The translations under genes were made by a program, and so were the position numbers. DNA of 43,025 nt from a virus. The notes beneath the pieces were generated by a model. It made no database searches and was not told the origin of the DNA. It saw only the letters and a list, made by a program, of their open reading frames with translations. Below, in pieces: positions 28,901-30,666 of the stretch. The stretch spans positions 1 to 43,025 of IMG/VR virus record IMGVR_UViG_3300020185_000097; one strand, given 5' to 3'. How positions within the stretch are numbered: the stretch's first letter is position 1; each line of letters opens with the position of its first letter.

Positions 28901-29907
28901 AGTATTCCTTTTTTAGTTTCGTTTAACAAGTCTAGTGAATAATATCTATTCAGATTTCTATCAAAAAACATTCTACACTTACCCGTCTTGCCACTTCCTT
29001 TTGGCTTAGACTTCTGAACAATCACCTCTCGCACGTTATTATAATTTTCTACGCTGTGTTTCATTTCAATATCTCCTGATTGCGCGCCCATCGTTTGATG
29101 CGTTTTATGAGGATTGTAAACTAAAATTATTTGATAGCCTTTACGATCGAACTGCTGGCCATAAGCAAGCTCCTCTTTCTTTGTTGGTGGAGTCCAAAAG
29201 AATAGTTCATTGTCATTATCCTTAGACGTTATTTCACGCTTATCCTTAACGTGGTTCGTTAGTATCGTGCAGTAGGATTTCTTCTTTGTCCATGCGATTA
29301 GCACGTTAAGCTCTTCTTTAACTGCATTCATAATATTTGACCAATCGATATCTAGTTCATTAAACGGATCAATACACACACCATCAAACTTCTTGCCTAG
29401 TCGATTCTCTTCTTCGCCTACTTGCTCAAAAAAGTTCTTTAAATTAAGGTTTAAGTTCTCAAAGTTCTCCGTCCAATTCTCCATCGGATCAAGTATCCTA
29501 AAATACTTATTGATCCAGTTTATGCAGTTGTTAAATGTATCGTTTGACATTGGTAAGTGGTTTGGGTCGGCTTCTTCAGAAGGAGATAAAATGTCAACAA
29601 TCTGGCCTTTACTTACCTTTTCTATAAGTTGCTCAATGATCTCATCTCTATCGCCCATCTCTGGTGACATCACTATCCAAACCCATTTATGCATAAGCGA
29701 GGCATTTATCATGATGTCTAAAATTAATTCAGTCTTTCCAACTCCTCCTTCTCCAGCTATAACAATTGGATAACCTTTTTTTAGTGAAGCAAGTTCATTT
29801 AGGTTAGGCCAAGCAAAGTCTAAACCTCTTCTCCTGTTTGATAGCCTTCTCTTTTCAATAGCTGACTTTCGTTCTAGTGGTGCTGTTGTTAGTTTTTTAG
29901 TAACCAT
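28885..29907 (-). CDS. RecA/DnaB-fold ATPase, replicative helicase-like
   Basis: A 340-residue protein with Walker A GEGGVGKT at residues 52-59, VWIVMSPEMGDRDEIIEQL after the next strand, a Walker B-like FDGVCIDPFNE near residue 175, and YCTILTNHVKD as the following strand with a sensor-like Asn-His. The fold is that of DnaB/RadA-type RecA ATPases lacking an N-terminal DnaB domain. It overlaps the DUF6291-type initiator gene by 11 nt, forming an initiator-helicase pair as in small phages. It acts on phage DNA in the cytoplasm. Confidence 0.7.
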   Translation of the reverse strand: MVTKKLTTAPLERKSAIEKRRLSNRRRGLDFAWPNLNELASLKKGYPIVIAGEGGVGKTELILDIMINASLMHKWVWIVMSPEMGDRDEIIEQLIEKVSKGQIVDILSPSEEADPNHLPMSNDTFNNCINWINKYFRILDPMENWTENFENLNLNLKNFFEQVGEEENRLGKKFDGVCIDPFNELDIDWSNIMNAVKEELNVLIAWTKKKSYCTILTNHVKDKREITSKDNDNELFFWTPPTKKEELAYGQQFDRKGYQIILVYNPHKTHQTMGAQSGDIEMKHSVENYNNVREVIVQKSKPKGSGKTGKCRMFFDRNLNRYYSLDLLNETKKGILWPKV

Positions 29908-30526
29908 AATTTGGTGCTTTAATTTTTTTATGTTCTGTTGTTTTATCCTTTAACCATTCAGCATTAAAACCACTCCAAGACATTTCAACGCATTTAGTTA
30001 TTACTTCATTTGCTGATAAGGTAGTTTTTTCTATTTGGTTTTTAAGTGAGTTAAAAGCTGTTTCGGTATTTACAGCCTTCTTTGTTTTCCTGACCTTCAT
30101 GTATTCAGTTGCAATCTTATTATCTACCTCTAAAGCACATAAAGACTTTTTAAAAGAAAAGGCGACTGTATTATTAATAACATTCTCATTATCATTTACA
30201 TTCTCATTATCATTTACAGCCATTTTTGCCATAGCGTTTATGCGTTTGCCATCATTTGCTATGTTTTGCCATCTGGCATCAGCTCCTCTTTTACCAGCTT
30301 CAGACCTGTTTTCCTTAGTTTTTTCAAACTTTTTCAAATCTCTTTTAAGCTGTTGCTTTATAGGTTCAAATACAAGGTTGATTATTTGATCATCTATTGA
30401 CGGGTTTTCGTCATTGACATACCTATAAATATGTTTAAGTAATTTACCAGCTTGATCGTCAGTCAGTAAATCAATCGTTGTCTTTTGATCGGCGTAAAGA
30501 ATAAATGATTTCTTGTCTTTTGCCAT
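29897..30526 (-). CDS. replication initiator-like protein, DUF6291-type N-terminal domain
   Basis: A 209-residue protein. Residues 5-85 (SFILYADQKTTIDLLTDDQA ... KHIYRYVNDENP ... FEPIKQQLKRDLKKFE) match the DUF6291 domain found in Bacteroidetes mobile-element replication proteins. RSEAGKRGADARWQN follows, then a short Asn/Asp/Glu repeat (VNDNENVNDNENV), then a C-terminal helical domain. It is followed by the helicase-like ATPase. A role in origin binding or helicase loading is inferred from gene order. Its leader contains a terminator-like structured RNA (30541-30630). Confidence 0.62.
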   Translation of the reverse strand: MAKDKKSFILYADQKTTIDLLTDDQAGKLLKHIYRYVNDENPSIDDQIINLVFEPIKQQLKRDLKKFEKTKENRSEAGKRGADARWQNIANDGKRINAMAKMAVNDNENVNDNENVINNTVAFSFKKSLCALEVDNKIATEYMKVRKTKKAVNTETAFNSLKNQIEKTTLSANEVITKCVEMSWSGFNAEWLKDKTTEHKKIKAPNYGY

Positions 30527-30540
30527 TAAAAATTAGTTAT

Positions 30541-30630
30541 AAAAAAACCCCTGTACCGATAGCCACGACCAAGAGGCGTTTCGAGTACAGAGGTTTAAAA
30601 TGTATATTCTTGTCATTTGGTCGTAATTTA
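30541..30630 (-). ncRNA. structured short RNA or attenuator ending in an intrinsic terminator
   Basis: Downstream of a TTG-N20-TATCTTTG promoter, about 90 nt of minus-strand RNA would end in a 12-bp stem with one mismatch (30585-30596 with 30545-30556), extended by CGA/UCG and GCC/GGC helices, followed by seven U (30547-30541). The apical loop UCUUGGUCGU (30574-30565) contains UUGGUCGU, complementary over 8 nt to ACGACCAA at 30624-30617 near the RNA 5' end. This allows a pseudoknot. It could be a free small RNA or control entry into the replication genes downstream. Confidence 0.6.
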
Positions 30631-30635
30631 AAAAG

Positions 30636-30666
30636 CAAAGATAAATTTATTTTAGATACCAGTCAA
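30636..30666 (-). promoter_or_regulatory. host-type promoter upstream of the structured RNA
   Basis: Minus strand: TTG at 30666-30664, a 20-nt spacer, TATCTTTG at 30643-30636, which fits the Bacteroidetes sigma-A consensus. It overlaps the last codons and stop of the VRR-NUC gene. The predicted start is near 30629. Confidence 0.6.

Follow-up and report, generated by a model that had tools for sequence, protein, structure and literature searches.

The phage P4 CI and P1 C4 RNAs are short, same-strand RNAs located upstream of replication or antirepressor genes and complementary to the downstream start regions. They are processed rather than ended by terminators of their own and, like plasmid copy-control RNAs, lower synthesis of their target, Rep in the case of the plasmids, by antisense. 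In the pseudoknot-bearing leaders of plasmid replication initiators (IncI/IncB repY-repZ, ColIb-P9), loop pairing occurs before the initiator and a leader ORF is coupled to rep; these systems act at the level of translation, with an antisense RNA transcribed from the opposite strand. The put RNA of phage HK022 is not known to carry a terminator T-run of its own, and its defining activity is antitermination at downstream terminators by way of the RNAP beta-prime zinc domain. It is a cis element of ~70 nt with two stem-loops, located downstream of early phage promoters, and suppresses termination (PMC9378689). The element characterized here appears to resemble all of these (plasmid rep leaders, HK022 put, C4/CI RNAs) in function. 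Compared with the repY-repZ leaders, it has an intrinsic terminator within the leader and the predicted pairing is with the 5' end; compared with put, its 3' hairpin is the terminator and the two loops are predicted to pair together; and the start-region complementarity typical of CI and C4 is matched in a minority of its relatives.

The window, that is, the whole stretch of DNA analysed, is a virus record of 43,025 bases (IMGVR_UViG_3300020185_000097). On the minus strand, a nuclease-like gene is followed by the element, then by a DUF6291/O-like replication gene (hereafter rep) and a DnaB-like ATPase gene (Table 1). A sequence-only reading had proposed a promoter, TTG-N20-TATCTTTG, followed by a terminator hairpin and U7 ahead of rep, and these parts lie exactly where it placed them, with the TTG inside the 3' end of the nuclease-like gene. 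The terminator stem comprises 13 bp, including two G-U pairs, closes a 26-nt loop that contains UUGGUCGU, and ends 18 nt before rep. Segment B lies 28 nt from the terminator arm, and the order of the parts, their spacing and the loop size are as in the wider family described below. The window copy, however, is an atypical form as judged from its sequence: it lacks a convincing 5' hairpin, and immediately after B comes the ATG of a possible 27-codon leader ORF, whose frame extends across the terminator and closes 6 nt short of the rep start codon.

Table 1. Features of the element and its neighbours in the window, in minus-strand order.
Feature	Position	Strand	Basis or remark
Nuclease-like gene, upstream	31048-30647	(-)	PHROGs 93, 5702
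TTG, possible -33 element	30664..30666	(-)	20 nt before TATCTTTG
TATCTTTG, Bacteroidota-type -7 box (TAnnTTTG)	30636..30643	(-)	sequence and comparison with relatives
Predicted leader RNA, ~90 nt	30541..30630	(-)	start predicted 5-8 nt after the -7 box
Segment B, ACGACCAA	30617..30624	(-)	perfect 8-nt complement of B'
Possible 27-codon leader ORF	30533..30616	(-)	sequence only
Terminator stem, 5' arm	30584..30596	(-)	folding and detector
Inner stem GCC/GGC presenting the loop	30562..30577 (30577-30575 with 30564-30562)	(-)	covaries in relatives
Segment B', UUGGUCGU, complementary to B	30565..30572	(-)	within the terminator loop
Terminator stem, 3' arm	30545..30557	(-)	folding and detector
U7 tract	30541..30547	(-)	sequence; overlaps the last stem pairs
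rep: DUF6291/replication initiation O-like protein, 209 aa, ATG at 30526	29897..30526	(-)	Pfam PF19808 E=3.4e-25; PHROGs 6451, 12556, 678
DnaB-like ATPase gene	29907-28885	(-)	protein-family matches

The predicted fold and the match between loop and 5' region both exceed what is expected by chance. In a program that cannot represent a pseudoknot, the predicted folding energy of the 92-nt RNA is -24.6 kcal/mol (z = -3.3). The 8-nt complement is perfect, as had been claimed, and none of 300 loop shuffles equalled it in locus L004, a close relative with the identical element sequence. The exact ACGACCAA recurs once more on the same strand of the window, at 13113-13106, inside a long ORF. A simple sigma-70/terminator scanner accepts loops of at most 8 nt and for that reason missed the window terminator. 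When the -7 box, the B:B' helix and the terminator were required together, the resulting combined detector found one place in the 43 kb, 30545-30643 (-), which is the element, and none in five Markov copies. L004, the one close relative found, adds no sequence variation to the window copy, and covariance models built from relatives matched this copy weakly: searched in the genome that carries it, R1 gave E=0.047 and R2 no match.

Relatives of the replication locus were collected by a replication-protein search of IMG/VR, from which the best 80 of 294 loci were taken, and by a DNA-pattern search that returned at least 119 stretches, chosen for having a T-run ahead of the gene. Once loci with under 130 nt of upstream sequence had been removed, the matches listed yielded 190 upstream regions in 94 clusters, and in 71 of these 94 a terminator precedes the gene. 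Among the 43 clusters with a member in the best 80 of 294, which were not selected for a T-run, a terminator stands before rep in 29, compared to 82 of 940 shuffled upstream regions, and is absent from 14. Scored as contiguous Watson-Crick helices against loop shuffles, pairing between the terminator loop and the 5' region reached p<=0.05 in 56 and p<=0.01 in 35 of the 71 terminators from the matches listed; for the 29 unselected terminators, the corresponding numbers were 25 and 20. Bulged-duplex energies, with the loops of other loci as the null, were replaced as a pairing metric, being noisy (5' pairing in 7/71 at p<=0.02) and set against loops that share sequence. The sequence-only reading had named loss of the complementarity without compensating changes in homologues as grounds for abandoning it; it withstood this comparison, since most relatives keep the pairing and their sequences differ.

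Of the two halves of the proposed promoter, the comparison supports only the -7 box, which occurs upstream of B in 45 of the 56 pairing relatives, against about 2.4 expected (roughly 4% each), whereas the TTG at -33 is present in only 12 of the 45 relatives having the box. The distance from the box to B is usually 7–15 nt, and the terminator arm frequently lies 28–32 nt from B. With the upstream nuclease-like protein as the query, we recovered only two loci, the near-identical relative and L085, and in the latter the element is absent.

In most relatives, a short 5'-terminal hairpin carries B in its loop, and a 3–4 bp inner stem atop the terminator carries B' in its own, so that the element usually presents two apical loops predicted to kiss. 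At a lenient threshold applied without shuffle comparison, 68 of 74 clusters scored for the 5' hairpin and 70 for the inner stem. The earlier suggestion of a pseudoknot-capable RNA thus stands with respect to the pairing, but the form predicted for most relatives is that of two kissing loops, not a simple pseudoknot. An alignment of 21 sequences including the window aligned badly. We picked 13 of its rows as alignable, leaving out eight, the window among them, and aligned these with plain MAFFT using a structure taken from L013. In this alignment, every one of the 351 cells pairs and both partners have changed in 22 of the 27 pairs, a result that none of 500 shuffles reached; the kissing helix alone has changes on both sides at six of eight pairs and the inner stem at four of four, the T-run contains five invariant Ts, and sliding the partner by one column reduces pairing to 48–49%. 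A second group of 11 sequences paired in 88.6% of 264 cells (73–75% in its two short stems), with both-side changes at 7 of 24 pairs, a number that 7 of 500 shuffles reached, and a covariation score that none of 500 did. By eye, we saw no conserved antiterminator, an alternative stem that would draw on the 5' arm of the terminator.

Applied in strict form to 291 phage loci (2,170,291 bases, counting overlapping loci of one contig and excluding loci from bacterial genomes), the detector found 163 places in 74 clusters and none in one Markov copy. The window observation is confirmed and is one case of an element widespread among phages of Bacteroidota. Among cultured phages scanned whole, Harreka_1, 11b and elemoA_7-9A each carry one element and tooticki6-1 and phi19:3 two each; Riemerella phage PJA1 carries none by the strict detector, and controls on the six cultured phages gave 0–0.2 per genome. 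In the elemo phage (MT497017.1), an annotated tRNA-Ala gene lies shortly upstream of the element (L003 1804-1879). Bacterial chromosomes gave few signals: R2 had no match in 395 Bacteroidota genomes and R1 one match in 397 genomes of one family, but the filter becomes strict above 40 genomes, so that absence of the element from bacterial chromosomes is only suggested. Among DUF6291 loci from bacterial genomes, pairing was found in 3 of 21, and most lack the element.

An ATG-initiated ORF follows in 73 of the 74 clusters, with a median of 20 nt from the end of the stem to the ATG. Of these 73 genes, 48 resemble the replication protein. Ten of the other 25 were scanned, and four proved homing-endonuclease-like (three HNH/NUMOD4, one T5orf172/MUG113), the remaining six being a helicase, a DNA methylase, a ParB-like protein, a YopX-like protein and two without a named family. 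Thus, from the genes that follow it, the element is not confined to replication genes. Rep does not always follow immediately: one or two small genes intervene between it and the element in Harreka_1, the elemo phage and others.

Two variant forms were seen. A leader ORF runs through the terminator in 8 of the 74 clusters, too few for a codon-pattern test. Short leader ORFs at or just after B, as in the window, occur in phi19:3 (L288), L183, L268, L113, L139 and L150 and end near or beyond the rep start; seven B-adjacent cases in 74 clusters are no more than suggestive. The other form, seen ahead of rep in L164, L130, L132, L170, L172, L190, L184, L121 and L134, lacks the customary 5' partner: its terminator loop has its complement instead in a motif that follows the T-run and precedes the rep ATG. 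In L164, this motif is AATACACAATA and is present twice.

Taken together, the sequence comparisons argue for a cis-acting, RNA-only kissing-loop or pseudoknot attenuator of replication and other DNA-metabolism genes, to which we assign a probability of about 0.58. Transcription would start at the -7 box or enter from the upstream gene, and, in the nascent RNA, the 5' segment B would pair with B' in the terminator loop, forming a kissing-loop complex in most relatives and an H-type pseudoknot in the window. RNA polymerase would then either terminate at U7, releasing the leader RNA, or read through into rep. Since transcription reaches B' ahead of the 3' arm of the terminator, the pairing could set the speed or efficiency of terminator formation, raising or lowering termination, possibly in response to a signal. 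In the window sub-form, where B abuts the start codon of the leader ORF, a ribosome on this ORF and B:B' pairing would be mutually exclusive. As far as the sequence can tell, the arrangement is that of an attenuator leader: a promoter, an intrinsic terminator and a gene start directly after it, with no space for another promoter between the last two. The mRNA of a gene that starts some 20 nt after the stem must pass the terminator, which makes attenuation the economical reading. The sequence-only interpretation is thus partly supported: an attenuator fits best, but would act, by position, on other genes besides those of replication.

The loops within individual phages bear on whether the RNA acts in cis or in trans. 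Two or more elements occur on 11 of 109 contigs, two of which (L150 and L173) carry the same pair, and no loop match of at least 6 nt was found between different elements of one contig in 26 ordered pairs from the 11 contigs, which favours action in cis. Contigs with such non-cross-matching loops include L254, L064, L199, L202, L093, L289 (tooticki6-1), phi19:3 (L288/L322), L060 and L150, and the gene after some of their elements encodes an HNH homing endonuclease, a helicase or a methylase.

Antisense feedback in trans, in which loop B' of the terminated same-strand leader RNA would bind around the start of either rep or the leader ORF and lower Rep synthesis, we consider unlikely as a general account. 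It draws on a third copy of B immediately upstream of the rep start codon, which matches over at least 7 nt in 10 of 71 cases (1.3 expected from swapped loops) and over at least 8 nt in 5 of 71 (0.34 expected). These copies comprise several unrelated sequences (L035, L012, L007, L006, L139, L164), and further ones occur in L268, from the detector set, and L281, from the bacterial-genome DUF6291 loci. Most relatives, however, have none (61 of 71 below 7 nt), no copy for control of the C4/P4 CI kind precedes the rep ATG of the window, and B' is already taken up by B within the molecule. The third copy may leave room for action in trans in a minority of relatives, not in the window.

A stable stand-alone small RNA with another host or phage target, the downstream gene being coincidental, appears quite improbable. 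Its own -7 box and terminator, with hairpins at both ends in most relatives, would suit such an RNA, but a gene start lies close behind in 73 of 74 clusters, and the loops differ between copies in one phage, leaving no common target sequence.

At the gathering cut-off, Rfam 15 had no match in the window or in 20 related loci (103,782 bases), and for the window region up to E=10 the only match was the trpB motif (E=4.1). C4 antisense RNA appeared neither in these scans nor in the sub-threshold scans of L035 and L013. Sub-threshold matches look like chance, except perhaps that of L035 to RT-14 RNA (RF02921), one of the RT motifs that reportedly stem from a 2017 survey. This match spans only positions 89-144 of 144 and scores 28 bits (E=0.026; gathering 48.1), short of the full-length match above 48.1 bits that marks RT-14 membership, and the window and L013 have no match. 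The 3' part of RT-14 and L035 (2918-2978) share an A/U-rich linker and, in the terminator hairpin, an AGUA/GAA internal loop, which in L035 we take to be sarcin-ricin-like; this internal loop was scored in only 13 of 74 clusters. A short A/U-rich linker recurs among the elements by eye. In the titles and abstract openings of the papers listed on phage small, immunity and antisense RNAs, RT-14, noncoding RNA of Cellulophaga phages, kissing-loop attenuators and candidate-RNA surveys, we found no description of the element, and its novelty in print is judged from these and from Rfam.

An antitermination RNA binding RNA polymerase from the nascent chain, in the manner of put, seems very unlikely: the two hairpins just after phage-gene promoters recall HK022 (PMC9378689), as might the recurring linker, but a conserved T-run comes directly after the 3' hairpin of the present element, and no family reached its Rfam cut-off. 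A DNA-level feature, such as initiator binding sites or an origin hairpin, is highly improbable, since the proximity to rep and the iteron-like B, B' and occasional third copy are outweighed by the fixed orientation with the -7 box and T-run, the G-U pairs in the stems of the covariation alignment, and the occurrence before endonuclease, helicase and methyltransferase genes.

Beyond the attenuator reading itself, a speculative and rather doubtful extension is a phage-wide class of RNA-only switches with operon-private loop pairs, in which several mutually insulated attenuators per phage would count their own transcripts, the released leader RNA capturing nascent B and restoring termination, across several early operons of many Bacteroidota phages. 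The presence of the element in cultured phages (Cellulophaga phi19:3, Olleya Harreka_1, Flavobacterium 11b, tooticki6-1 and elemoA_7-9A) makes these predictions directly testable. The element represents a covariation-supported structured RNA class in the little-studied Bacteroidota phages, offers a predicted set of naturally non-cross-matching kissing-loop terminators, and would show how these phages gate their replication, helicase, methylase and homing-endonuclease genes.
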